Source: Medicago truncatula (Eukaryota > Streptophyta > Magnoliopsida > Fabales > Fabaceae). Taken from it: DNA of 64,000 nt. Location: contig NC_053046.1 of the NCBI RefSeq assembly GCF_003473485.1, forward strand, positions 11,728,001-11,792,000. Direction: 5' to 3'. The notes beneath the pieces were generated by a model. That model saw nothing but the letters and a program-made list of their open reading frames with translations, had not been told where the DNA came from and made no database searches. Below are positions 2,908 to 63,359 of the stretch, piece after piece. The position numbers and the translations under genes are program-made. Position 1 is the first letter of the stretch. Every line of letters starts with the position of its first letter.

Positions 2908-5900
2908 TTACTCTTGTCTAATATAAAAAGATGAACTCATATCTGTAATTGAATCCTCAGGTGGACCATAGTAATTTTCATCTTTCTCTTCATCCCATTT
3001 AAGAACCTCTTTTATGTACTTGAATGCTTCATCAACAGTTATTCTTTCCCTTGCCCTAACTTGTGCAACAAAAAGTTTCTTTCCTGTGATGGATGCATAA
3101 AGGTCTTTGAATTTCATCGCGACGTAGAAGTAAGCTTGATGTGCTAATGACTGGCTGTTGTCGTGTGCGCGCACGGGAGAAAAATCTTTGAACCATTCAC
3201 AAGTGTTGAGGGATACCCTTCTCATCTTTTCCTCGAAGACGTCGTATTTGTTAAGAACTAGTATTAAAGGAGTGTCTTTGAAACAAGGGTGTCTCACCAT
3301 TGTTTCAAAAAGCTCCTTGCTTTGTATCATCTTGTTTTGGAGAAGTGTTCCGCTGCCATTGCTGTCTGGTGCAAGAGATAACTGATCGTAGTCGCTTAGG
3401 GAAACACAGAAGACCACTGCTCTAACATCTTCAAACATTTCAACCCACTTGCAACCTTCGCTCATGCCCTTGGCATTCACCCTTATGAGTTGGTACCTGA
3501 GATATCAAAGAAATGTTGTTAATATGTACTTAATATGAACCACTTTTTTCGTCCTCGATATTCAATATGCTTACTTGGTCATTGGTTGCAACTGAGCATC
3601 AAGGTTATCTGTATAAGCATCAAACTTTGGGCTACGATCATCGAGCGAGAATTCCATGAAAGCCAAACCATTTCCCTGAGTAACCCCTTCTGCATATAGT
3701 ATGTCCCTTTCAGAAGGTTCATAATCATTGCTAGATATCTCAACAGCCTGGAAGTAAAAAAACGAGCACATTATCTAGGTACACAAGTCAATACCTTAAT
3801 CTCTCCAACGCAGAAAATGAAAACATTGCTACTAAAATAATAACCGTTTCTATTATGAATTTATGATGCATAGACAATAAACTTAGGTCATGTTTGGATA
3901 AACAATTTAATTAAGTGCTTACAATAGTCCATAGAAGTGCTTATCATATAAGTGCTAATGTATAAGCTATTTTTATAACAAAATATAAAATAGTGAAACT
4001 GTTTTCATATAAGCTATTTTCATAAGCTATGCTGGAGAGCTTACGGAAATAAGTTGAAAACAGCTTACAACGTGTCATAAGCTTTCTTAAACAGTCTCAC
4101 AAGTGCTCATGACAGTAGATAAGCTCAAATAAACCAATCTAAACAGACCCTAATTATAGCATCTGTAAATTTTAATGTTAAGAATGAATAATGGCTAAAG
4201 AATAAGATTTAAAAACACCGTAATTTTAAGAAGATTCTGGTTTCAAGGATGATTAGATAAGCAATTACCCGGCTTAAGAAGTACTCCGCAACATCTGGAA
4301 GGAAGTGAAGCTCGTCTTTTCTTTTGAAGGTCTCTTGTATCGCTGGATCTTTCCACACTTCTTCAACTAGTGGTGCATATTCACGTGTCGCTGCAGGGAA
4401 GAATGCATCTAAATCCCCAGTGGCTATAATGTCCAGGAGCCAATCAGAAAAATGCTTTAGCCTTGGGTTGAGAGAATAGATGCACTCACTAGTATTACTA
4501 GCTTCACCATTGCTACCTGAATAAAGATTGAAATAGGGTAAAACACCAAAAGGTTTCCGATATCATTACAGGATGATGACTATAAACGTTAGCCGCAGAA
4601 TTAACATTAACACCGACCGAATCTATATTCATAAACGGAATCATTTGTAGTAGATTAGTCATTTCTTAAATAAAATAGAAATCATGTACGCATGCATGTT
4701 TCGAATGCATGTTTAGGGTTAGGAAGCTTGAAAGATATCAAGAGATTCACTAAGAAGTGTTTAGTTTGTAGTTGGTAGTTGATGATAATCGAAGCATCGA
4801 ATGACGTTACATTATCTAGAAGTAAAAAATCAACATGACATAAAATATTACCAGCTTCCATAATGTGAGCAGGCGAACCTTGTCCATTCATTCTAGAAAC
4901 AACCTCCTCTTCAAAACGCTCTCTTCCATCAAGTAAAATGCTAAGATATTTGTACATGTTACTTTGTATCATCAGTTTAACGTCCTCCAGCTCTTGATCA
5001 GTAAATTTGTTCCCGTACAAAAATTTGGCCTGCTCAGCAATTATAAGATCACCACAGAACAGAATCATGTTATAAGAAAATCAATATTAAACACTAGTCA
5101 TGTTTATACAAAAATTGTTTAGTTATATATGTGTTTATGTGTGTTTTAATATTTATATTGAAGTACTTGTACACTCGTATAGTATTCATATTCATGCAAC
5201 ATAGTTTTACACATTTGAAACAAAAGCCATACCTGCTTAAACATAGTGCTAGTTCCAGACCCTTGAATTCCAAGAAGAAGAAGCTTCTGAGTTTTTTTCT
5301 GTTCAAGATATTTAGGAACTGTGGTATAATTACTAGCCTCGTCTCTTGATCCATGAGGCTGTCCATGAGGATAGGGTAGAGAGAAGAGGGCAGAAACAAA
5401 TCTTGTCGATGCCTGTCATGAAAAAAATAAGTAAACATCTCTTTCATTATTATTCTATACTCTTTAATATGACTTAAATAGGTTACCACCAATGAAGCAC
5501 GGATACGGACACGGACACGACACTGACATGCCGACACCGCTAATAATTTGAGAAAGTCGCATAATTTAGTGTAATTATATGTGTCGGTGTCGTTCGGTGT
5601 CGGACACGACACGTGTCCAAAACCAAGGCACGGCTAATCGGAGGAGTGTCCGTGCTTCATAGGTTACCACCTACAAGTATTTAAGTGAATACCTTCTCCC
5701 AAATGTTTCCTCTTATATTCTTTTGACCTTCCTCCTCGTAACGACCATCATCATAAACCCAAAAATGAGTATCACGTGGACACTGCACGTTTGCCAACTG
5801 AAAATTCAAAGAAAAAGGTTATTCCATTGAATTCATTGATGCCAAAATTCTATGATAATGATAAGGATCATCCGAATATTAAAATAGTGGCAAAAACACT

Positions 5901-11658: not shown

Positions 11659-12073
11659 AGGTCAAATGCATCTAAAGGTTTCTTAAGTTTTTCATTTTTT
11701 TAAAGTGGTCCTTTAAGTTTCAAAAGTTCTTTTAGTTTTTGAATCGTTTCAAACAAGTCATATTGCAGATAGCATAGTTGGTAATTGCTTCCTTGAACTC
11801 ATCTTTGATACCAAATCTGCCTCCTAACACCCACTTAAAATTAGTCATCTTTTTAGGCATCACAAATGGTGGATAATGCTCTTTGTTGCTAACATTTGAA
11901 TCACCACCATCATCCTTTAAAAGGATTTGTTTGAAACGATTCAAAAATTAAAAGGACTTGTTTGAGACTTTTGAAACTTAAAGGACTTGTTTGGGACTTT
12001 TGAAACTTAAAGGATCACGTTGGGAAAAACGAAAAACTTAAAGAACCTTTAGATACATTTGAAAAATTAAAGT
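11659..12073 (-). mobile_element. Deleted Mutator-like element keeping a MuDR transposase fragment
   Basis: The outer about 100-150 bp are inverted copies: the left end GGTCAAATGCATCTAAAGG pairs with CCTTTAGATACATTTGAAAA at the right, and 'CCTTTAAGTTTCAAAAG' words recur in both arms. Between them, on the minus strand (11944-11732), an open frame encodes a segment with PKKMTNFKWVLGGRFGIKDE and FKEAITNYAICN, which resembles the N-terminal MuDR domain of plant Mutator transposases. The element is thus a deletion derivative, not a host gene. I could not define the target duplication. Confidence 0.6.
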
Positions 12074-15552: not shown

Positions 15553-17370
15553 ATGACTGGGACAATTGTCCTTAGCCAAACTCATTTTTCATCACTACCA
15601 AATAATCAACCCTATAGCATTGAATTGTGCAATAGTTTCAATGAAAAAAGATGGTTATGTTTACTCAAAAGATGCAATAGTATGGAAGAATTTAAGCAAG
15701 TTCATGCCCATGTTTTGAAATGTGGTATTTTCTTTGATACATTTTGTATGAGCAATCTTGTTGCAACTTGTGCTCTAACAAAATGGGGTAGCATGGATTA
15801 TGCTTGTTCAATCTTCACTCAGATCGATGAACCGAGTAGTTTTGACTATAACACAATGATTAGAGGAAATGTTAATGACATGAAACTAGAAGAAGCTTTG
15901 TTGCTTTATGTTGATATGATTGAAAGAGGTGTTGAGCCTGATAAATTCACTTATCCTTTTGTTTTAAAGGCTTGTTCTTTATTAGGCGTGGTCGATGAAG
16001 GAATTCAAGTTCATGGTCATGTTTTTAAGATGGGTCTTGAAGGTGATGTCATTGTGCAAAATAGTTTGATCAACATGTATGGTAAGTGTGGGGAGATAAA
16101 GAATGCTTGTGATGTGTTTAATGGAATGGATGAAAAGAGTGTTGCTTCATGGAGTGCTATTATTGGTGCTCATGCTTGTGTGGAAATGTGGAATGAATGT
16201 CTAATGCTTCTTGGGAAAATGAGTAGTGAAGGAAGGTGTAGGGTTGAAGAAAGCACACTTGTTAATGTGCTCTCTGCTTGCACTCATTTAGGGTCTCCTG
16301 ATCTTGGAAAGTGTATACACGGGATCTTGTTGAGGAACATTAGTGAACTCAATGTTGTTGTGAAGACTTCGTTAATTGATATGTATGTCAAGAGTGGATG
16401 TCTTGAGAAAGGTTTACGCGTATTCAAAAATATGTCGGAGAAGAATAGATATTCTTACACTGTAATGATATCTGGTCTTGCGATTCATGGACGTGGTAAG
16501 GAAGCTCTTAAAGTTTTCTCAGAAATGATTGAAGAAGGTTTGGCACCAGATGATGTTGTCTATGTTGGCGTATTTAGTGCTTGCAGTCATGCTGGTCTTG
16601 TCGAGGAGGGTCTACAATGTTTCAAAAGCATGCAATTTGAGCATAAGATTGAACCAACGGTTCAGCATTATGGTTGCATGGTGGATCTGTTGGGAAGATT
16701 TGGGATGCTAAAGGAAGCCTATGAACTCATAAAGAGCATGTCAATCAAGCCTAATGATGTAATTTGGAGGAGCCTTTTAAGTGCTTGTAAAGTTCATCAT
16801 AACTTAGAAATTGGCAAGATTGCAGCCGAGAATCTTTTCATGTTGAATCAAAACAACTCAGGCGATTATTTGGTGCTTGCTAATATGTACGCAAAGGCAC
16901 AAAAGTGGGACGATGTAGCCAAGATCAGAACAAAATTAGCCGAAAGAAACTTGGTACAAACACCCGGGTTTAGTTTAATTGAAGCAAAGAGGAAAGTGTA
17001 CAAGTTTGTTTCACAAGACAAGTCTATACCTCAATGGAACATAATCTATGAGATGATTCACCAAATGGAATGGCAGTTGAAATTTGAAGGGTACATACCA
17101 GATACATCACAAGTTTTGCTCGATGTAGACGATGAAGAAAAGAAAGAGAGATTGAAATTTCATAGTCAGAAGTTAGCAATTGCTTTTGGACTCATACATA
17201 CATCTGAGGGTTCTCCTTTAAGAATAACAAGAAATCTTAGGATGTGTAGTGACTGTCATACTTACACTAAATATATTTCCATGATCTATGAAAGGGAAAT
17301 TACTGTAAGAGATCGTCTTCGTTTCCACCATTTTAAAAATGGAAGTTGTTCATGTAAAGATTACTGGTGA
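15553..17370 (+). CDS. Single-exon PLS-class PPR protein with E/E+ and DYW domains, 605 aa
   Basis: One uninterrupted frame runs from ATG 15553 to the stop at 17368-17370. After an unconserved N-terminus it carries about ten PPR motifs of the PLS type (for example GVEPDKFTYPFVLKACS and PDDVVYVGVFSACSHAGLV), then the PG-box region (TPGFSLIEAKRKVYKF) and a complete-length DYW domain ending GSCSCKDYW. Such proteins edit C to U in plastid or mitochondrial transcripts. The two CxxC zinc sites (CSDC and CSC) are present, but the deaminase motif HSE reads HSQ (residues 537-539), so the catalytic glutamate is missing. It appears homologous to Arabidopsis At1g31920, which I recall as a neighbour of XLG3. 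Organelle targeting is not clear by eye from the N-terminus. Lack of introns is normal for this family. Confidence 0.92.
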   Translation: MTGTIVLSQTHFSSLPNNQPYSIELCNSFNEKRWLCLLKRCNSMEEFKQVHAHVLKCGIFFDTFCMSNLVATCALTKWGSMDYACSIFTQIDEPSSFDYNTMIRGNVNDMKLEEALLLYVDMIERGVEPDKFTYPFVLKACSLLGVVDEGIQVHGHVFKMGLEGDVIVQNSLINMYGKCGEIKNACDVFNGMDEKSVASWSAIIGAHACVEMWNECLMLLGKMSSEGRCRVEESTLVNVLSACTHLGSPDLGKCIHGILLRNISELNVVVKTSLIDMYVKSGCLEKGLRVFKNMSEKNRYSYTVMISGLAIHGRGKEALKVFSEMIEEGLAPDDVVYVGVFSACSHAGLVEEGLQCFKSMQFEHKIEPTVQHYGCMVDLLGRFGMLKEAYELIKSMSIKPNDVIWRSLLSACKVHHNLEIGKIAAENLFMLNQNNSGDYLVLANMYAKAQKWDDVAKIRTKLAERNLVQTPGFSLIEAKRKVYKFVSQDKSIPQWNIIYEMIHQMEWQLKFEGYIPDTSQVLLDVDDEEKKERLKFHSQKLAIAFGLIHTSEGSPLRITRNLRMCSDCHTYTKYISMIYEREITVRDRLRFHHFKNGSCSCKDYW

Positions 17371-28551: not shown

Positions 28552-31500
28552 ATGCAAGTTTCAGGTGCTGCAATCAGCGACGTTATGGTGGTGCTTCCAT
28601 CTTCATCCTCTCTCCGGTTACCGGAATTCCGCCATTTCCATTCTTTTGATGCCAAGAATGTTCTTTCCACTGGATTTCTTAAGGTAAGCTTTTTATATTA
28701 TTCATTCTTTACTTTCTTTTATCATTTTGTTCCCATAAAATCTGTATGAAGTTTGAGGATAGGATTTCATTGCTATATCAGTTAAGTTAGTTGCAAGTTC
28801 AGTAAAGTAAAACAAAAAAAAACTTTTAGTTGCAAAATCAGTTAAGTAAGTTGCAAGGCAACTAAAATTGGTTAAACTTATTTCTTGTTAGTTGCCTTGC
28901 AACTTGCACAATAAAGTTTGTTAAGGTAAAAAAGACATCAGTTAGACTTGTATATTAGCTTCTTTTATAGGTTAGTATGGCTTATTGTCTTTTTCAAACT
29001 ATTTCTTCTTTTGAGAAAGATAGGGGTCCAAAAGTGCAATTAAGCCTACAAAAATATTATGAAATAGTGGCTATAGAGCCACTATAGCACTGTTGTGTAT
29101 CGGAATTTGAACAAACGTTATTCTTACGCTATTTATTACAAAGTATTATGAAATAGTGCCTATAGCACCGCTATAGCAACTACTGTGTATTGGAACTTGA
29201 ACAAACCGCCATTTTCCGCAATCTGCAATTAGTAACACTGTGTAGGCTACAAGGAACCCACATTGACTATGCATTTTTCCAACTTTTTTTTCCCTTAAGC
29301 TTAAAAATTGTTTTGTTTGCAGAGACTTAAAAATAGTTTTTATGTATCTTTCGGATCTCTGATGGGTTTTCATCCATCTATAACTCATAACTACACAATT
29401 TTTATTAATAGGTAGGCTATTTCAATACCTGCCTATTTCTGATGTTTTGAGCCTGTCTGTTTTGTTCTTGAACCCTTTTCTCCATTACATACTTCCACTA
29501 AATAACTTATCATCAGTGGTTATATCATTATTAAACTTACTTCTTGATAGTTGCCTTACAACTTGCACAGTGAAGTTTGTCAAAGTAAACAATATGTCAG
29601 TTAGACTTGTCATGAGCTTCCTTTATAGATTAGCATGGTTTATTGTCTTTGCAAACTGTTTTTTTGCTTTTTTTTTTGAAGGAATTTCAAACTGGTCACA
29701 TATTACTAAAATGTATGTCATTTTGTTGGAGGAATTTTCAGCAACTAAATAGCTGTTACGTGTTTTTTTCTCTGCAGAGTTGTCCTCCATCTTATAATGC
29801 CAAACACTACAATGAACCCTACAGTTTTCGAGGTAGAGGGTTAGTTGTGAGAGCATCTACAGATTCAAGTGATAATTTTGTGCCTTCTCCTCCTCTCCAA
29901 TTTGAGTCACCAGTTGGTCAGCTGTTGGAACAAATTTTGCAAACCCATCCTCATTTGTTTTTAGCAACCATTGATCAGCAGCTAGAGAAACTTCAGACTG
30001 AAAGAGATGCCAACAAAGAAGAATCGTCTACATCATACGAGGATTCCCTTTACAAGTAAGTATAGTAATCCTTTCCTTCTTTCCCATGATTTGACTAGAG
30101 CTAGCTATGGGGAAAGGAAAACTTAAAAAAATCAAAGGGCTTTTGGACAACCATACCCATGAAAAAATCATGGAAGCTCTGCTTATGGTTTTAAATTTTT
30201 CTATTGTTCTAGGCACATATTGTGTTATCATACTATCTAAAATCTTTCCAGTACTAAAAGTCTTCATGTGAATTGCTAGTAAGAACGTTTGCCTGCACAT
30301 TCAATGTTTTAGGGGTTCTTTTTGTGATATTTTTTTTTTTTTATTTTCATTTTTCTTCTTGAGTTTGTAATTTTCTTACTGATATACATAAATGGTTAAT
30401 GATCGAAGCCTTAGTGGTATGAAAAAAGCCATGCTTTTTTGGATAGACTACTTTTGAAAGTTTGTGTGGTGTGTGTGACTTAAAAAGAAGGCAGTCATGG
30501 GTAATACACGAATGGTAAAACAAAACTTGGATCTAATTCTTAGTTAGCATGTGTTAGTTAGGTTATGCAGTTTATAGCTTTGAAAAACACATCAGAATTA
30601 GAATTGGGCTGTGAGATTGAGGAGTTAACAGCATATCCAAACACTATATTAATTCATATTTTCTTTCAAATGTTAGTTTGTCTAATACAATGTTTACTTA
30701 GTGCCTACCTGAAAGATATTTTCCTTTAGCTTTATGAGACTGGCCACACACATGCATATTCATCATGCCAGTAAGATCTTCTCATGTCAGCTGCATGGAG
30801 CTAGCTACTTATATTATTAATTTAAGATCATGTGCAAGTGCGTACACACACACACTTACTTGTGAGTAAGTGATAGTCCTTATCTCTTTTCATCTCATGT
30901 TAATTTAAATTAATTAGGAATTGTGTGCTCTTCACCCTTTATCTGCCAAACCACTGAAAGATTGAAACATTAAAGTAGAATATATTTGCATGAATATTGG
31001 TTATTTGTTTATTTAGTTATTGGTAGTGTAAATGTGATCAATCTTTTTTAAATCTGAATTTTAGGAGGATAGCTGAAATTAAAGAGAAAGAAAAGCGCAC
31101 AACACTGGAAGAGATAATGTACTGCTTAATCGTGAACAAATTTAAAGAGAACAAAATTTCAATGATCCCAAAAATATCAGCAACCTCAGATCCTAATGAA
31201 CAAGTGGATTCATGGCCAAATCAAGAGTTTAAGTTAGAAGCTGTTCATTCTTCAGAGGCATTTGAGATGATACAGAGTCACTTGTCTCTGGTACTAGGAG
31301 AACGGGCTGTGGGTCCTCTTCAGACAATTATTCAGATTAGCAAAATCAAGCTGGGTAAGTTATACGCTGCTTCAATAATGTATGGATATTTTCTCAAACG
31401 GGTTGATGAACGCTTTCAACTGGAGAGGTCAGTGGGAACACTTCCACAGGATTTGGGTAAAGAAAATATTAGTTTTGATGAACCATCGCCACCAAACAAG

Positions 31501-31887
31501 CTCTGGGATTCAGATTCCTTGATTAGGATCTATCCTGATGACGAAGGTTATTATGAAATGGATGACATGAATACTGGTGATGGTGAAGGCAAATCATCCG
31601 GACTGCGAGCTTATGTGACGCAGTTGGATACGGAGGCACTTCAGAGACTTGCTACCGTACGCTCCAAGGAAGCTATATCATTGATTGAAAAGCAAACTCA
31701 GGCCCTCTTTGGAAGGCCTGATATCCGCCTCTCTGGCGATGGTTCGATTGAAACTACCAATGATGAAGTTCTTTCGCTTACCTTCTCAGGCTTGACTATG
31801 CTTGTTTTGGAATCTGTTGCTTTTGGATCATTCTTATGGGACGAAGAAAACTATGTTGAGTCCAAGTATCCTTTTCTTGCTAAATAG
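28552..31887 (+). CDS. Plastid-type DUF760 protein (UV-B-induced protein family), 410 aa
   Basis: Coding exons 28552-28683, 29778-30055 and 31065-31887 join in frame to 410 aa. The upstream bases fit a non-coding first exon ending near 28445 (donor GTAAGAAC) and an acceptor at about 28523. The N-terminus is rich in serine and basic residues (to about residue 70, RGRGLVVRAS), like a plastid transit peptide. The body has the DUF760 features, e.g. QLLEQILQTHPHLFLATIDQ, EEIMYCLIVNKFKENK and, after an acidic linker, SLIEKQTQALFGRP and LTFSGLTMLVLESVAFGSFL. Relatives include Arabidopsis At3g17800 and At1g48450; by position the orthologue may be At1g32160. The molecular function of the domain is unknown. 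The start could lie upstream if the first exon is coding, but the frame there does not form an ATG across the junction. Confidence 0.88.
28871..29671. repeat. Duplicated blocks in intron 1 of the DUF760 gene
   Basis: A block of about 140 bp (28871-29011) containing GTTGCCTTGCAACTTGCACA returns at 29530-29671 with about 15-20 % change, 659 bp downstream. A second, nested pair (about 29050-29115 and 29137-29210) shares 'TATTATGAAATAGTG' and 'TGTGTAT.GGAA.TTGAACAAA'. No transposon ends were found, so segmental duplication inside the intron is the simplest reading. Confidence 0.65.
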
Positions 31888-38546: not shown

Positions 38547-39946
38547 GGGATTTACTTTTCCCATCCTATGCTTTTTCTCGCGCGCCCTATTTTTTTTTTT
38601 CTTCCAATTTTACCCTGGTTTGGATTTCGTTTTTCGGATTGTATTGTTAAAATTTTGAAGATGTATCCGGATTTTAAAATTCGGAATAGTGTTTTTTCAA
38701 AAATTTTACAATTTTAAGCTTTATAATTCGTAAAATAAAATGCAAATAAAATAAAAAATAAAGAGACAGACATAAAAACAACTCATTTTATTATTATATG
38801 AACAATACGTTACAATAATTTTCAAGCTTTTTAAACTTATTACATAAGATCTTAAATATATTTCTAATCTCCTAAGAGGCTAACTACTGTTATGTGATAG
38901 GACATAGCAGTAGGTTCCCTATTGGAGGGCAACCAGAGAAGGAGGGAATAGGAGGGCGGGAAGAAGAGAACAATGCCCCTGAGGGAGGTAGGGGGTGCTC
39001 AAACTTACGTCCGGGCATGCCAAGCTAAGAACTACACTGACCCACATGACCCTCAGAGGAACCGCACTTCGTTGCAGCATGGTTCCATCCTCATTAACCG
39101 TTCATACAAACCCTGAAAGTTTCAACGAGGCCCTTATCTATGAAAGGCCAACGATGAAAATCCATGGTTGTAGAAGGAAGAAGAGGAGGAGAGGGTGGGA
39201 GAGGATGGTGTGAGAAAAAGTGGGGTTTGGAAGGCTATTTATAGGGAGGGGTGAGTCAAAAACGGTTGGGAGGTCATAAATGTAGTAAAAAAAAAGTGGT
39301 AAAACACGTTTTTTGACTTGACCACCGACAAAAACATGTGGTGCAGACCACCGACCATGACACTGATGCAGTCCGAAAAATATAATCCGGAATGCACATC
39401 TGTTTTCCGGAATATATTTTTCGGATTAATGCGATAATGGTGACGAGGGAAAAAGTTGGCACTTCTTGCAGGGTTAAGGAAATTTCAGAATGTATAATCC
39501 GGAAAGCATCAACATTGAATTCTTTTGAAAGAGAGCCATTAATGTAGGTTTGAACGGTTACGACCACTAACACGTTTTCATTGACTGTACTAATGACCTA
39601 GGACTTATTTTAGGCCATAAATAGACTTTCATCTTCAACAAATACCTTCATTCTTTCACTTCACCTCTTTTCTTTCATTTTCTTCAAATGTTTTTAGTTT
39701 TTTTATGGGTGTCGGTGGTATCATGATCTTTATTGACCGTTCATATAAACCATACAATAGCATTGCAGCTTGTGTGGGGTTCATATAATGGTCAACAGAG
39801 ACTCTTGACATCAAAGAAAGACAAAAAAACACATAACATCTGATCCAAATTTTGTTTTCCGAAAGCACTAACAATCTGGTCCAGGGATATTTTTGTAAAT
39901 TTTGCAGGGCGCGCGAAAAGGCAGTAGGGTGGGAAAAGTAAAACTC
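38547..39946. mobile_element. Non-autonomous Mutator-like element, 1400 bp, perfect 9 bp target duplication
   Basis: The target word TAAATTTAA is found at 38538-38546 and 39947-39955. The termini GGGATTTACTTTTCCCATCC and, reverse-complemented, GAGTTTTACTTTTCCCACCC begin inverted arms that both run on to CGCGCGCCCT. The GC-richer inside (38900-39230) has no transposase; it reads on the minus strand like processed leader or a captured host segment, but no family was recognised. 'CCGGA' words (TTCCGGATTATA) recur in both halves. It lies 670 bp behind IWS1. Confidence 0.85.
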
Positions 39947-43642: not shown

Positions 43643-45350
43643 ATGGGACGACGCAAAATCTCACCTTTGGAAATTATGTGAGAATTTTAGTGGATATTGA
43701 TCTTTCAAAGAGAACTTTTGATGAAATTCTTGTTGAGCGCGATGGCTTTGCTTTCAAAGTTGAGGTACAATATGAGCGGAGACTGTTGTTTTGTCATCAC
43801 TGCTTCTCTATTGCGCATGATGTCTCCACTTGTCGTTGGTTACATCCGCAACCACCAAAAGACAAGAATGATCGAGGGAAACAAATTGTTGTGGCCGAGG
43901 CATCCCCTACCAAGCCTACTCGGTAGAACTACAACAACAATGATGTGGGTGCTTCCACGTCGGCTAATGGCAGCACTTGGACATGGGTTACAGCTCCGTT
44001 TGCTTCAACGGTTATTACCACTCAGCGGGTTCCGGTTGCTACATCTCCACCAACATCATTGGCCTCAGTTTCATTGGCTTTACCAGCTTCAGTCCCTTCC
44101 CCTAGTTTGCCAATTCATTCACACTTGGGGCCGGTTTCTTTGGTTACTTCCACACTGGCGTCTTCACAGATGGACGCGTCTTTTTCGTTAACTTCTTTTA
44201 GTTTTCCATTACACAATGTGTTTGATAGTATTACTCCTGGAGAGTTGCCACATGTTATGCCAGTGTTAGAGGTTCCCTAGTTGCGCAAGTTGCCGTGCAT
44301 TCTAAGAGAGCAGAGCAATTGCATCTGACATCGCGGGAGGTGTTGGAGAACCCCATGGCGGATGACGCCTCTGATTTGCTTTCTGATGTTGTGGAACACG
44401 ATCGTTCGAGCCCGAGGGAGCTGGAGGAGAGTCCCAAAGGTTCCCACGAGAGTGAGCATAATCGTACGAGCCCGAGGGAGCTGAAGGAGAGTCCTAAAGG
44501 TCCCAACAAGAGTGCCCTACATACACCACATATTGAGAACCATGAGGTGCATGAAGTATCGGTTGCTGTTGATGAGCACATTGATGTGCATTAAGGGTCA
44601 CACGCTACCTTTGAGTTACCTGTGGTTGTTGAGCCGACAACTTTCAGTTAGTGAAAGTGTGCCCACGGAAGAGGAACATATGGTCACGATTTTGCAGCAG
44701 CAAGTGATCCATCCGAGCAAAAATATACAACATGGTTTAGATTTGTGGGACATAGTTCGTGAATATGATGAAAGATCAGCGAAGGAAGACTTCACATCGG
44801 TTCTTACAAGAAAACAGAAACAGAAACTTAAAGTTAAACAAGTTTTAGCAACACAGTCTTCTAAAACCCGTGCTCGGGGTGAACATCTCTCGACTTATCA
44901 ATGAATTTCCTCTATTGGAATGTTAGAGATGGCATAAAGCTCGCAATCTTGGGATTCAGGTTATTTCTTCTCATATCTACCATAAAGGAAACAGTTGCGC
45001 AGATAAGTTGGCTGCTTTGGGTCATTCCATGGTTGGTGAGGTTCGGCTTGTCACTCTTCCAAATGAGTTGAAGATTGATTTCTTTCGAGACAGATGCAGG
45101 TTACCTAACTACAAATTTCCTTAGTATGTTTTTGGGTTGTTTTATTGTTTTCTCTGTTTTTTCGCTGTTTTTTTTGGAGGGTTTTGGTCTAGTCCCCCCT
45201 CCTTTTGTAAATATTTCCCCCCCTTTTTTTAATAAAATTTCGAGTTTGGCGGCATAGGATGGAGGTCTCTCGGAGTGCCAACCTAATTGGGATGTCGATG
45301 AGACCTCTTGACCGTCCTCTCTCCTTGCTTATCAAAAAAGTTTGAGAATG

Positions 45351-48544: not shown

Positions 48545-48960
48545 ATGTTGTATGAGAATGTTGGGTGGTAACAAATCAACACGAGAGTAAAATACGAATA
48601 GCAGAGATGAGGAATGTTGCGTTAGATGTATGATAAGACTAGACATGATAGAATTATAAATGATTATATTAAAAATAGAGTTGGGGCAACACTTATTGTA
48701 GAAAAGATGGTAGAAACTCAACTTATGTGGTTTGAGCATGTAAAGAGGAGACATGTAAGTTAAATTGTAAAGGTCTGATGAAGGGTAGTTGCATTATTAG
48801 AGGCACATGAAAACATAGAAAAACGAAAAATCTATTAAGAAAAATATAAATATTAATGAGTTAGATAAAAATTTGGTATTTGATGGCGTCATTTAATCTA
48901 TATAGACAAATCTCATTTAGTGGATATAGTACTTAATTAATTGTTGTGGGTTCCTAGAAC
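48545..48960 (+). pseudogene. 3' end of a non-LTR reverse transcriptase (RTE-like) ORF
   Basis: With a few stops the plus strand reads MLYENVGW, then MYDKTRHDRIINDYIKNRVG and IVEKMVETQLMWFEHVKRRH. This corresponds to the conserved end of plant RTE-type or 'endonuclease-reverse transcriptase' proteins (pattern ECW..KN, TRHDRIRN, RWFGHV.RRP). Multiple stops make it a fossil, and nothing upstream of the fragment remains. Confidence 0.7.
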
Positions 48961-49424: not shown

Positions 49425-52400
49425 ATGGAAGTAGAAATTATATTCCATTCAATCTCCAACATCCAACAATTAATTAAGAGCTCCCAAGAACCCCTAGTAA
49501 ATCGGTTATCAGGAGTTGACATCGACCAACTTAGGAACAACCTTAACGAGATCGATGAAACAGTAAAAAAAGCACAAAAAAGTCACTTCCGTAGCTCTGA
49601 AAAGATTCTTCCTTGGTTGAAAAATGTTAAAGTAGCGATAGTCGAGTTTAACGATTTGATAGAAGATATCAATCTCAAGGAGAGTATTGCTGGCAATATT
49701 TCGATTTTCAGATGGGTGTTAAGCTTAAAGAGTCGTTATAGTGTTACGCGTCAAGTCACAAAAGAGCAAGGGAAACTCAAAAGCTTAAGTGAGGATGGAA
49801 AGAGTTTAATCTCTGTAGAATTAGAACAAGCAGCAGCAGGTAGCAGAAGGTTTTCAAACGAAGTGTTTGAGAAAGTTACTGTGGTTGGAAGAGAATATGA
49901 GAAGAAAGAGATTATAGATCGACTACTTAAGTGGATCAAATCTACTGATGCTTTTCATGTTGGTGTTTTTGTCATTGTTGGTGTTTCAGGAATAGGAAAG
50001 ACAAAACTTGCACGTCTTGTTTGCAAGGATGAGCAAGTCAAAGCAAATTTTGGGCCACAGCCAATTTGGATCGATCTTCTCTACGAGACCTTTGATGTTG
50101 AATCAATAGTTAAGTCAGCTACCACCACTGTTAATGATGGTAAACACCCTCTAATTGTGCTTGATGGTTTGCAAAATGAGATGAAGAAGGATCTTGAGAA
50201 TTTGCAGCAACGATTAAAGGAGTCTTGTGGTACCGGTTGTGCAATACTCATCACTACACGTGGCAGCCATGTTGCTAACATGGTTGCTAACAACATTTCT
50301 GGATTTGCTGCTAGATTTGATTTGGGAGGGTTTCATGAAAAAGAGAAGAAAGAGCTTGTAGATCAACTACTTAACTTGAACAATTCTACTGATGATTTTC
50401 ATGTTGGTGTTTTTGTCATTGTTGGTGTTCCGGGAATAGGGAAGACAAAACTTGCACGGCTTGTTTGCGAGGATGAGCAAGTCAAAGCAAATTTTGGGCT
50501 ACAACCAATTTGGATCGATCTTCTACACGAGACCTTTGATGTGGAATCCATAGTTAAGTCAGCTACCACCACTGTTGATGATGGTAAACACTGCCTAATC
50601 GTGCTTGATGATTTGAGAAATGAGATTAAGAATGATCTCGAGAAGTTGCAGCAACGATTAAAGGAGTCTTGTGGTACCGGTTGTGCAATACTCATCACTA
50701 CACGTAGCAACCAAGTTGCTAACAACATTTCTGGATTTGCTGCTAGATTTGATTTGAAAGGGTTTGATGAAAAAGATTCTCAATCGTTGTTTCAACAAAT
50801 TCATAGATCAGCTTCAGCTTCAACTTCAACCAACAACAAACAAGACAACGGATTGGAGATTGTGAAGGATTGTGGGGGAGTGCCTCTTGCGATAAAGATC
50901 AAAGCGGCGTTGATGAACAAGATTCTTGATGAAGGAGGACAAATAGAAGACGTGGAGAGGGAGTTTCTAAACGAGCTCAAGTTTAGATATTACGAGGATC
51001 TTCCCACATGTTATAAATTGTGCTTTGCATTTTGTTCATTGTTTCCAGAACATCATTTGATTGATGCCGAGAGATTAATTCAACTTTGGTTTGCTGAAGG
51101 ATTTATCACGTTTTCCTCCATTAGTCAACAAGAAAATGGTTTCAACGAATTTGTTGCCTCGGTTTTCCAACAAGTGGAGAAAGAAAACAGCGAAGACCAA
51201 CACGGTGTTGTGAGGGAGTGCTATAGAATGAACAGGTTCATGCATAAACTCACAAGGTTAGTGGCTAGTGGCGAAAACATCACTGTAGATTCAAAGGGAG
51301 AAAAAGTTGAAGAAGGAATGCTGCGAGCTTCGTTTGATTTTGGTTTGGATCTTTCGTGTGGGATTCCAGATTCGATGTTTATAGCAAAGAAACTGAGGAC
51401 CATTTTATTGCCATACAAAAACATTAACAACCCTCGGCTTCCACACGAGGTGAAGATGACGACGCCAACCTGTGATAAGATCTTCAACACCTTCAAGTCC
51501 ATGCACGTGTTGGATCTACATGACTTGGGGATCAAGATTGTACCAACCTCTATTGAGGAGATGAAATACTTGAGGTTTCTAGATCTATCCCACAACAACA
51601 TAGAGAAGCTTCCTAGTTGCATCACAAAGCTTATCCATTTGCAAACCTTGAAACTCTCCTACTGTCATGTCCTCAAGGAATTGCCAAAAGACTTGAAGGA
51701 TCTGACTCGCCTCAGCCATCTTAACATTGAGGGTTGCTTGGATCTAACTCACATGCCAACCGGGATAGATAAACTCACTTCCTTACAAACATTGTCACTT
51801 TTCGTGGCCAGCAAGAAACATGCTGACACCGGAGGACTAAGGGAACTCACAAATCTCAACAACCTCAAGGACAAACTGGAAATTTTGCATCTGGAGCAAG
51901 TCAAGTTCTCTCCATCCAACGAAGCGGCTAAAGATGAATTTGTGAAAAATAAACAACACATTCAGCATTTGACTCTAAGATGGGACCGCGATGATGATGA
52001 AGAGGGAAGCAGTGGCAGCGGTGGCGCTGATGTAGACAACAACGACGAGAAGTTACTTGAATGTCTCCAACCACCTCCCAATTTGAAAGTTCTATTCATT
52101 GTAGGGTACAATGGCCGCACCTTATCTAAATGGCTCGATTCGCTTCAATGCCTTGTTAAGTTTACCTTGAGTGACTGTCCTAAATGCAAATTTCTACCGC
52201 CAATCGATCACCTTCCAAATCTCAAGGCTCTCCATCTTCGGAGGTTGGAATCTCTTGAATTCATTGCAGAAAAGAGCAGTGAACCTAAAGTAGATTCCTC
52301 TTCCTCTAAACAAGAATTCTTTCCAGCCTTGAAGGAGCTTACAATTTCGGATTGTCCTAAACTCGAAAGTTGGTGGGAAAATGATAAGACATTGAAAAAA

Positions 52401-53162
52401 AACAGACCATCTTTCCCTTGCATTTCAAAACTAAATATCCGATGTTGTCCTAAATTAGCATGCGTGCCACTGTGTACTAATCTCGATGAAGAGTTGGTTC
52501 TGGTAGATTCCAATGTAAGATCAATGAGGGAAACCAAAACTGAAACCGAAACTACCGTAGAAGCTTCACTAAGTCCTCTCTTGAATTTGAAGTTCATGGT
52601 AATCGAGCGTATTGAAGAATCTCCACCACAGAATTGGCTTGAAGGCTTCACTTCCCTTAAAGAACTTCACATTCGAGATTGTCCTAACTTAAAGTCATTA
52701 CCACAAGGTTTCAAGACTCTCTGTTCACTACAGTCTCTCTGTATTGAGAGATGTCAGGAGTTCCACCTCGAAAAACCTGAAGTCGATTATTGGGAGGGTC
52801 TTGTAAAGCTTGAGTCTCTTACTTTAAGGAGTATTCCAAAACTAGTGACCCTTACACGCGGATTTGGAAACTTGAAATCATTGAAAGATTTAAGGATTTA
52901 TGATTGCCCTAGTTTAACTCATTTACCAGAAACCATAGACAATCTCACTTCACTTCGTGAACTGGTTCTTTCTGAATGCAGAAGTATGGATTCTCTGCCC
53001 AAAGGAATGATAAAGCTCACGTCACTATTTACCTTGATCATTATGGACTGCCCCTTGTTATTGCCAAGGTGTCAACCTGAAACGGGTGATGATTGGCCAC
53101 AAATTGCTCAAATCAAACATAAGTCAGTGAAGGAGACTCCTCAAGACTTAGGGGACCTGTGA
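49425..53162 (+). CDS. CC-NB-LRR resistance-type protein with duplicated P-loop subdomain, 1245 aa
   Basis: Single exon, ATG 49425 in context TCAATGG. Residues 1-150 are a diverged coiled-coil (Rx_N-like) region. The NB-ARC starts with VGREYEKKEIIDRLL; P-loop GVSGIGKT at 186-193, kinase-2 LIVLDG at 243-248 and RNBS-B GCAILITTR at 271-279 are followed by a second set: GVPGIGKT 334-341, LIVLDD 391-396, GCAILITTR 419-427. Then come one GVPLA (485-489), RNBS-D (CYKLCFAFCSLFPEH) and a degenerate MHD site reading MNR at 602-604. From about 690 to the end are leucine-rich repeats (LRFLDLSHNNIEKLPSCITK and many later DCP-type repeats). Family members sense pathogen effectors and form oligomers that start cell death. 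No in-frame stop breaks it, so it may be expressed. The first kinase-2 has Gly for the second acidic residue. A 3'-UTR intron may follow (acceptor near 53639). Confidence 0.93.
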   Translation: MEVEIIFHSISNIQQLIKSSQEPLVNRLSGVDIDQLRNNLNEIDETVKKAQKSHFRSSEKILPWLKNVKVAIVEFNDLIEDINLKESIAGNISIFRWVLSLKSRYSVTRQVTKEQGKLKSLSEDGKSLISVELEQAAAGSRRFSNEVFEKVTVVGREYEKKEIIDRLLKWIKSTDAFHVGVFVIVGVSGIGKTKLARLVCKDEQVKANFGPQPIWIDLLYETFDVESIVKSATTTVNDGKHPLIVLDGLQNEMKKDLENLQQRLKESCGTGCAILITTRGSHVANMVANNISGFAARFDLGGFHEKEKKELVDQLLNLNNSTDDFHVGVFVIVGVPGIGKTKLARLVCEDEQVKANFGLQPIWIDLLHETFDVESIVKSATTTVDDGKHCLIVLDDLRNEIKNDLEKLQQRLKESCGTGCAILITTRSNQVANNISGFAARFDLKGFDEKDSQSLFQQIHRSASASTSTNNKQDNGLEIVKDCGGVPLAIKIKAALMNKILDEGGQIEDVEREFLNELKFRYYEDLPTCYKLCFAFCSLFPEHHLIDAERLIQLWFAEGFITFSSISQQENGFNEFVASVFQQVEKENSEDQHGVVRECYRMNRFMHKLTRLVASGENITVDSKGEKVEEGMLRASFDFGLDLSCGIPDSMFIAKKLRTILLPYKNINNPRLPHEVKMTTPTCDKIFNTFKSMHVLDLHDLGIKIVPTSIEEMKYLRFLDLSHNNIEKLPSCITKLIHLQTLKLSYCHVLKELPKDLKDLTRLSHLNIEGCLDLTHMPTGIDKLTSLQTLSLFVASKKHADTGGLRELTNLNNLKDKLEILHLEQVKFSPSNEAAKDEFVKNKQHIQHLTLRWDRDDDEEGSSGSGGADVDNNDEKLLECLQPPPNLKVLFIVGYNGRTLSKWLDSLQCLVKFTLSDCPKCKFLPPIDHLPNLKALHLRRLESLEFIAEKSSEPKVDSSSSKQEFFPALKELTISDCPKLESWWENDKTLKKNRPSFPCISKLNIRCCPKLACVPLCTNLDEELVLVDSNVRSMRETKTETETTVEASLSPLLNLKFMVIERIEESPPQNWLEGFTSLKELHIRDCPNLKSLPQGFKTLCSLQSLCIERCQEFHLEKPEVDYWEGLVKLESLTLRSIPKLVTLTRGFGNLKSLKDLRIYDCPSLTHLPETIDNLTSLRELVLSECRSMDSLPKGMIKLTSLFTLIIMDCPLLLPRCQPETGDDWPQIAQIKHKSVKETPQDLGDL
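49893..50780 (+). repeat. In-frame tandem duplication of 444 bp inside the NLR gene
   Basis: Unit 1 (about 49893-50336) and unit 2 (about 50337-50780) line up with a constant offset of 444 bp (148 codons): P-loop 49980 and 50424, kinase-2 50151 and 50595. Long identical runs, for example the coding of LQQRLKESCGTGCAILITTR, show the duplication is recent. The exact breakpoints are blurred because the flanks are similar (YEKKEIIDRLL against KEKKELVDQLL). Confidence 0.95.
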
Positions 53163-62044: not shown

Positions 62045-63107
62045 TTTTATTTTTTTTGAAAGAACCTATATGACAAAAATTTATGTTGATTAATATGTAA
62101 ATGTGTCGTGTATAATTATAAGTTCAAAACATAAGTTGATTTTATTCGTTGTATTATAACTTTTATCTAGATCGACGGATCCCTATATAAAATATAAACA
62201 CGTATTTGTCATATATTGCATTATTTAGGTACAATATTTTATTTCAAGGAAGAGATATTTTGATAATTGAACGACTATTATATCTATCTATAATCATTTG
62301 ACCATTTCAATTAACTTTTGATCAAATCTAAAATAATTTGATATGTTATTTAGGTGTCTAAATTAAAGATTAACTTCAAATAATAAAAATTCTTAAGAGA
62401 TTCTTCAAAAAAAAACAAAAAATTCTTTAGACACTAATCTTCAAAGCACATCAATAACAAATCAAATGGTTTAAAATTTATTTAAATGTTTATAGAGATG
62501 ATCTAGAAATAAATTTTCAATCTGCCAATCAGTTTATATATGTTCTTAGCTTAATGTATACATTAATTTGCAGGTGTGGTGGACGATAGTCTCCTTAAAA
62601 ATAAATCGCTACACATGTTTATTGAGAGTGGCGCGTGGAAAGATGCAAAATTATTTATGACTGATAGTAATAATGATATGGCAATATTTTCGACGTCCTC
62701 CATGGGGAGGACCGTTCTACATGTCGCAGTGATTGCTGGGAGGGAGGGCATTGTAAAGAAGTTGGTGAAGAGAGGGAAATACGAGTTAATGAAAATGAAA
62801 GACAATCGTGGATACACAGCCCTTGCTCTTGCTGCTGAGCTTACTGGAAACACCAATATAGCAAAGTGTATGGTAGAAAAGAAGCGAGGGAAATCATCAC
62901 TACATGGATCAGAGCCTGTTATCGACCATGACTTGTTATTTCTGAAGACCAATGATGATGAAATCCCTCTTCTTCTTGCTGCTGCTAAGGGACACAAAGA
63001 ATTGACAAGCTATCTATACGATAGTACTAAATTGGATGACAAGAATGACAAAAGTTTCGACAATCGTGTTTTGCTTCTTACACGATGTATCACTGCAGAA
63101 ATATTTG
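59526..63107 (+). CDS. Ankyrin-repeat protein with Gag-like N-terminal exon, 5' part (continues beyond window)
   Basis: Exons 59526-59865 and 62574-63107 join across GT-AG (CAA G then GT GTG) in frame; a donor GTAAGTG after 63107 shows that more exons follow, probably past position 64000. Exon 1 (113 codons) resembles the DUF4219/UBN2 Gag domain of Copia elements: FEPLTKDNYDYWSCLVRNYL, LGQDLWGFV, then AREAWNELSTHYSSD. Exon 2 begins the ankyrin part: SLHMFIESGAWKDAKLFMTD, GRTVLHVAVIAGREGIVKKL and GYTALALAAELTGNTNIAKC. Relatives usually continue with more ankyrin repeats and a C-terminal PGG membrane domain (ACD6/ITN1 type) linked to stress and defence. Intron 1 (2708 bp) is filled with nested elements and intron 2 starts with a Copia fragment. 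Expression cannot be judged here. Confidence 0.82.
60278..61536. mobile_element. Mutator-type element carrying a PPR fragment (candidate Pack-MULE), 1259 bp
   Basis: Inverted arms of about 160 bp begin AGTTTAAATATGTATTTCAT (left) and AGCTTAAATATGTATTTCAT (right, reversed) and include GCAAACTAGCCTTGCATTCT in both. The long arms fit Mutator elements; the insertion lies in T-runs so its target duplication is unclear. The 900 bp inside has no transposase but does have a host PPR segment on the minus strand. Confidence 0.75.
60601..60873 (-). pseudogene. PPR gene fragment captured by the Mutator-type element
   Basis: Minus strand, about 85 codons with no stop: SNLVWNPIIRANVSHGYYNY, PDGFTLPLIIKSCSKIG, then KIVHCHVSEMGFKNHLHVVN and ELVGMYGK. 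This is one P/L/S-type PPR stretch. It differs clearly from the PPR gene at 15553, so the donor was another locus. A stop codon lies just before it and the match ends abruptly at 60601, as expected for a captured exon piece. Confidence 0.8.
61868..61990 (-). mobile_element. Degenerate SINE (family 1), minus strand
   Basis: On the minus strand TTATGCATAATATATGTTGG, GAGGTTCGAAATTTGG (B-box) and GGCTACTTGACAAAAAAAA (tail) follow in the order of the copy at 56466. Confidence 0.6.
61999..62042. repeat. (AT)n microsatellite
   Basis: About 22 AT units, within intron 1 of the Gag-ankyrin gene. Confidence 0.97.
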
Positions 63108-63359
63108 GTAAGTGATGAAAACTTTTGATTAAATTATATATGTTTTATGTTCTCAAATTTATGTTAAAGTTTGTTTCTGTCTAAGATTTTCTATCTATAA
63201 TTCTTGTTATGAACTCTTTCTAACAAAGTAATATGCACTGGAAAAAAAATTCTCTTAAAATAGGCTTATAATCTCCAAAACAAAGCTTCATACAATTAGT
63301 ACAACAAAGATGCCTTAAAATCTATTTTACAACATTCAAATGCTTTGCATCTGAATTTG

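Follow-up and report, generated by a model that had tools for sequence, protein, structure and literature searches.

In a 64,000-nucleotide stretch of the Medicago truncatula genome (contig NC_053046.1, positions 11,728,001 to 11,792,000, forward strand; the window in the following), a nucleotide-binding leucine-rich repeat receptor (NLR) gene carries its nucleotide-binding (NB) subdomain twice in succession. The in-frame internal NB copy is confirmed in the given sequence, and only one ARC region and one leucine-rich repeat (LRR) region follow it. We consider it likely that this arrangement goes back to an in-frame duplication at a short similarity, that the second NB together with the ARC does the remaining switching, and that the first NB is a passive insert.

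Frame analysis found no stop across the 1245 codons of the gene (49425-53162); translation is inferred to begin with the ATG at 49425, and the reading frame is open already from 49299. By architecture the gene is a coiled-coil NLR (CNL), although its Rx_N score stays below the curated cut-off of 27.7, also with the first 307 amino acids alone (22.6 bits). The whole protein reaches 108.3 bits for Pfam NB-ARC (cut-off 23.5), and the LRR region 167.8 bits for R13L1/DRL21 (cut-off 27) and 118.5 bits for LRR_14 (cut-off 40). The best solved plant NLR matches, among the matches listed (60 of 149, many of them LRR-only), are 6j5t, named Disease resistance RPP13-like protein 4, and NRC proteins; we take 6j5t to be ZAR1. 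A divergent plant CNL is the best reading of the gene. Its parts are given below in window positions, with the two NB copies as unit 1 and unit 2.

49425..53162, +, receptor coding frame, 1245 amino acids plus stop, intronless
49515..49682 (aa 31-86), +, weak Rx_N-like coiled-coil region (19.0 bits, below the curated cut-off)
49881..49895, +, hhGRE motif VVGRE (aa 153-157), only before unit 1 (motif role according to PMC6713354)
49893..50336, +, unit 1, first NB subdomain, without an ARC of its own (Pfam NB-ARC 40.8 bits for 49860-50336)
49980..50006, +, P-loop 1, GVSGIGKTK (aa 186-194), by motif location
50151..50171, +, kinase-2 of unit 1, LIVLDGL, with G in place of the second acidic residue
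50271..50282, +, 12-base in-frame insertion in unit 1 (VANM), adjoining a near-identical 12-mer
50319..50351, +, junction of the end of unit 1 with the start of unit 2, DLGGFHEKEKK, an hhGRE look-alike (phmmer alignment)
50337..50768, +, unit 2, second NB subdomain, contiguous with ARC1 (Pfam NB-ARC 50.1 bits alone)
50424..50450, +, P-loop 2, GVPGIGKTK (aa 334-342), by motif location
50595..50615, +, kinase-2 of unit 2, LIVLDDL
50877..50897, +, single GLPL-like motif GVPLAIK (ARC1, aa 485), aligned to GLPLAIV of NRC1
51021..51050, +, single RNBS-D, CFAFCSLFPE (aa 533), by motif location
51039..51251, +, winged-helix (ARC2) domain, aa 539-609 (WH_DRP 36.1 bits, cut-off 27)
51228..51236, +, MHD position, reading MNR (aa 602-604), aligned to LHD of NRC2
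51483..52982, +, LRR region, aa 687-1186 (LRR_14, R13L1/DRL21-type and RPS2-type matches)

Structure and origin of the internal repeat

The duplication appears as a repeat pair of 300 nt with 90% identity and a start-to-start spacing of 444 (148 codons), together with a second pair of 62 nt with 95% identity and a spacing of 432. Aligned with each other, the units differ at 39 of 432 bases and are about 91% identical. A 300-nt match at 90% identity within one reading frame is, as judged and not computed, far beyond chance, and the 64 kb window contains no further repeats of at least 150 nt. The motifs follow the same spacing, as the P-loops start at aa 186 and 334, kinase-2 at aa 243 and 391 and RNBS-B at aa 274 and 422, all 148 codons apart. 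This agrees with the first-pass annotation of this DNA, which had described two in-frame copies from P-loop to RNBS-B at exactly this distance and had also read kinase-2 correctly as LDG in the first and LDD in the second copy. Due to the 12-base insertion in unit 1, the unit ends lie 432 and not 444 bases apart. This insertion is a second in-frame, slippage-like event within unit 1.

Each unit alone exceeds the Pfam NB-ARC cut-off, and with two choices of edges for each, unit 2 scored 49.9-50.1 bits against 40.8-40.9 bits for unit 1. The duplicated piece reaches from the last residue of hhGRE to the ARC1 border, which corresponds to the NB subdomain without ARC1 and ARC2. ARC1 with its GLPL motif, RNBS-D, the winged helix and the LRR region come only after unit 2, and the earlier description of one GLPL, one RNBS-D and one LRR domain behind the copies is borne out by the positions given above.

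With regard to its origin, the repeat probably derives from a single intragenic in-frame duplication of 444 bases in a divergent CNL. The end of hhGRE and the NB/ARC1 border resemble each other over a short GA-rich stretch, where slippage or unequal exchange would have produced the duplication. This GA-rich stretch is common to both edges of the repeat, with GAATATGAGAAGAAAGAG on the 5' side and GATGAAAAAGATTCTC on the 3' side, and to the junction (CATGAAAAAGAGAAGAAAGAG). Unequal recombination is described as enlarging legume NLRs, in the LRR in the case of Rps11 (PMC8571336). Unit 1 has the true hhGRE (VVGRE) and no ARC, whereas unit 2 has no true hhGRE and only the junction-made DLGGFHEKE, which phmmer aligned to DVVGFDD of NRC1 and NRC3. 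Our initial reading that hhGRE was lost from unit 2 was softened once the junction aligned to the hhGRE stretch of these two proteins, and the look-alike in front of unit 2 would be a by-product of the junction. The longest identical run between the units is 60 nt (P 0.087 under uniform placement), and gene conversion between them is not claimed.

Divergence, nucleotide pocket and competing explanations

The first-pass annotation had proposed the synonymous-site distance between the units as a check, which we measured with NG86 on 144 aligned codons (432 bases) with bootstrap intervals. Between unit 1 and unit 2, the synonymous distance (dS) is 0.117 (0.053-0.195) and the nonsynonymous distance (dN) 0.090 (0.056-0.127), with 12, 10 and 17 differences at codon positions 1, 2 and 3. 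The ratio of 0.77 (0.41-1.73) gives no clear constraint: it is compatible with neutral drift of one unit or both, and likewise with weak constraint. The differences are unevenly spread, with 10 in the first 60 bases of the units and 29 in the other 372 (Fisher P 0.047, post hoc).

The earlier argument that the absence of stops in 3.7 kb speaks against a dead gene stands for the whole frame and is uninformative within the units. There, 3.2 to 3.8% of random changes give a stop, and for 39 changes (at 3.6%) 1.5 stops are expected even without selection, with a probability of 0.23 for none; therefore, the open units prove little. For the whole frame, one lineage of length dS/2 should have acquired 8.8 stops without constraint (4.0-14.7 over the dS interval), whereas none is seen. 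This points to past constraint on the gene from the onset of unit divergence, provided that the units do not stem from already diverged alleles or paralogues. We also infer that the gene is expressed.

For the nucleotide pocket, we compared both units to NRC1. In the NRC1 crystal, ADP is contacted by V158 (hhGRExE), G188, G190, K191, T192, T193, R326 and H480 (MHD), the hhGRE contact of V158 to adenine being a main-chain contact, and the Walker B residues D267 and D268 are also named as interacting (PMC6713354). These residues were placed by hand on printed alignments. The equivalents of K191 and T192 are retained in both units, and the equivalent of T193 is K in both (GKTK). At the position of D268, unit 1 has G and unit 2 has D, while the equivalent of R326 falls on R after a two-residue gap, so that its placement is uncertain. 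The MHD histidine (H480 in NRC1) is not retained, as this position reads MNR. Besides, the NB is shortened between RNBS-A and kinase-2 by 19 residues in comparison to 6j5t in both units and by about 22 residues in comparison to NRC1 in unit 2, according to hand counts. Taking MNR, the K after GKT and the short NB together, the canonical switch looks weak apart from the duplication. Most of these departures probably predate the repeat because they are common to both units or lie outside of it.

Unit 2, the NB with the ARC, has a GVPGIGKT Walker A and the LDD acidic pair of kinase-2. It keeps a contiguous chain of NB, ARC1, winged helix and LRR and would be the sole unit able to form the normal interdomain nucleotide pocket. 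Unit 1 would be unable to form a closed pocket because it has neither its own ARC1 nor a winged helix; as an orphan NB between the coiled coil and the NB-ARC, it is most likely a tolerated insert, which may still bind nucleotide, its Walker A being intact. The pairing of one NB with one ARC, a rule on which the first-pass annotation had relied, is still obeyed and not overturned, since unit 2 has its ARC. The suggestion that the extra NB acts as a spacer, a decoy or a regulator fits an anatomy in which unit 1 has no own ARC and no second complete switch exists.

Several points weigh against a passive first unit in front of a working second one. The first 20 codons contain nine nonsynonymous and no synonymous differences, which a passive insert would not require, in a post hoc comparison of small numbers. 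Amino-acid differences affect 2 of 34 motif codons and 23 of 110 codons elsewhere (Fisher P 0.067, with analyst-chosen motifs), a hint below significance that both units may have preserved their motifs. The dating by stops assumes that divergence began at the duplication and would be void if already diverged alleles or paralogues had been joined. Moreover, MNR, GKTK and the shortened NB also fit a decay of the whole gene. On the same side we count that single-sequence AlphaFold2 models of aa 140-640 and aa 297-640 support no claim (mean pLDDT 40.2 and 44.3), and that no confirmed relative was found for the whole protein in viral contigs (7 pattern matches) or for aa 146-625 in bacterial and archaeal contigs (78 pattern matches), collections which by their descriptions are uninformative on plant relatives.

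A decaying gene, in which a divergent NLR no longer switches, the duplication is a further lesion and the frame is open by luck or due to recent decay, is rather unlikely in our opinion. The MNR at the MHD position, the K after GKT in both units, the 19-22 residues or so missing before kinase-2 and the Rx_N score below cut-off are all in line with it, as are a dN/dS near 1 and the mere 1.5 stops expected in the units. However, such a gene should show stops over its whole frame, where 4.0 are expected even at the lower dS bound, and its winged-helix and LRR matches exceed the Pfam cut-offs.

It is unlikely that unit 1 has been retained as a regulatory or bait domain. It would then be an NB fold minus the second Walker B acid, which holds nucleotide without hydrolysis and either sets the activation threshold from its place between coiled coil and NB-ARC or is itself met by a pathogen effector. 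Its intact Walker A, the sparing of motif codons and the amino-acid changes concentrated in the first 20 codons would suit such a role, and there is precedent in NLRs with two NB-ARC domains at resistance loci (PMC6997164, PMC10027608) and in RGA2, which is reported to participate in Lr10 resistance (PMC10343146). Yet the interval of dN/dS spans 1, retention of unit 1 is supported by no orthologue, and small numbers and post hoc choices limit the 20-codon cluster as well as the motif test. Even less credible, and in fact very unlikely, is a maintained pseudo-ATPase module in cis, which would hold nucleotide, be unable to hydrolyse it or to close on an ARC, and, placed between the coiled coil and the NB-ARC of a receptor with a degenerate switch, have taken over the off-state by replacing the lost MHD-based lock. 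False duplications do occur in heterozygous plant assemblies, but an artefact that merged two alleles or paralogues within one exon is extremely improbable for copies which differ at 39 of 432 bases and by an in-frame 12-base insertion and meet in frame at a short similarity, in a window without N and without any other long repeat.

Relation to known two-NB receptors

The architecture as such is already known from CNNL and RGA2-like proteins, and the Medicago gene is a further example. In consequence, the novelty implied by the first-pass annotation is not supported, as two-NB genes have been published, among them genes in which a fragmented NB-ARC stands ahead of a complete one. Grape and poplar are listed with CNNL in a review, which also gives RPP2a (TNTNL) as evidence that atypical NLRs can function (PMC3782705). 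For sunflower, 4 CNNL and 6 NNL are reported, and the table of this paper contains 5 CNNL for soybean, 2 for Brassica rapa, 1 for chickpea and none for grape, poplar and M. truncatula (PMC6115920). The zero for grape and poplar conflicts with the review, and the text of the sunflower paper names M. truncatula among the species with such subgroups, contradicting its own table. Furthermore, 112 Eucalyptus models with duplicate or variant fused domains, including CNNL (PMC4709456), two tepary bean clusters with NNL or CNNL structure (PMC8113540) and a subclass NN in pepper (PMC11899730) are described. RefPlantNLR obtained 488 NB-ARC domains from 479 entries, and therefore more than one is present in a few validated NLRs (PMC8559963). 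The CNNL, NNL and NN classes resemble the Medicago gene in having two NBS domains per protein, CNNL also in coiled coil and LRR. In contrast to the Medicago gene, in which only the NB subdomain without ARC1 and ARC2 is doubled, the excerpts of these surveys do not specify the doubled part of the NB-ARC.

A truncated NB-ARC ahead of a complete one is described for coffee, and the same paper states this for wheat with reference to Steuernagel 2020 (PMC9301388). The order is the same as in the Medicago gene, but these loci are mentioned as a cause of double annotation, with no motif detail in the excerpt. The CNL adjoining WTK3 carries two NB-ARC domains (PMC6997164, PMC10027608), and WTN1 is an atypical NLR working with WTK3 (PMC12839863). 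We liken the wheat CNL beside WTK3/Rwt4 to the Medicago gene by description only. WTN1 is probably this CNL, with a name that probably refers to tandem NB domains.

Wheat RGA2, the partner of Lr10, has a "partially duplicated NB-ARC domain", and 11 of 15 paralogues of rye ScRga2 have two NB-ARC domains with the first one fragmented (PMC10343146). The auxiliary role of RGA2 is a claim of earlier work, which this paper reports second-hand. The likeness consists of a coiled coil, a fragmented first NB-ARC, a second NB-ARC and an LRR region, and the Medicago gene follows this pattern with its incomplete first NB and a second NB that is continued by ARC and LRR. However, RGA2 and ScRga2 are monocot genes with two introns in 11 of 15 rye paralogues (PMC10343146), whereas the Medicago gene has one exon and units with 91% identity. 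The Medicago duplication, likened to the RGA2 event by description only, is therefore probably independent of it.

No residue-by-residue account of an NB-only duplication was found in the excerpts of the literature on two-NB NLRs, and therefore the fine anatomy may be unreported. The Medicago gene adds an example to a class that includes resistance-locus genes, and as a clean internal NB duplication with both edges readable, it is a convenient natural case for testing whether an ARC-less NB is tolerated or put to use by an NLR.

Further checks and surroundings in the window

Sites for miRNAs at the two P-loops were considered for miR482a, miR2118 and miR1507. The usual cut-off for miRNA target scores is about 5; all scores were above it, and no target site is claimed. 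With miR482a, P-loop 2 scored best at 7.5, which is lower than the best score of any of 20 shuffles (mean 11.7, minimum 9), and P-loop 1 scored 9.5, within the shuffle range, while miR2118 and miR1507 reached 10.0 each at best, within the shuffle range (minimum 8.5 and 9.5). Scores better than chance are to be expected anyway where a P-loop is conserved. As a crude check for splicing-out of a unit, a few strong donor words were searched in 49880-50780, and none is present. The NLR gene looks like a singleton in the window, as tblastn (E up to 1, no positive control) returned the gene itself as the single row; it also omitted the match of unit 1 to unit 2, presumably since BLAST drops matches inside a larger one. 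A Pfam scan of seven other long frames left three without a match at E 1e-4, and four matched:

2911-3504, -, G-alpha
15556-17367, +, PPR-DYW
31027-31884, +, DUF760
62567-63112, +, ankyrin repeats

Two Rfam matches exceed the gathering score: MIR5292 at 11871-11964 (-), which overlaps a tandem repeat of 29-31-base units and may be repeat-derived, and MIR2587 at 39718-39811 (+). Both families are described from Medicago truncatula. Upstream of the NLR gene, 48614-48757 contains a broken translation with RVGATLIVEKMVETQLMWFEHVKRRHV, which we take to resemble the tail of plant non-LTR reverse transcriptases. The window has a GC content of 33%, and at 44401-44514 a 60-base unit, GC-rich by eye, is present in 1.9 copies with 88% matches.
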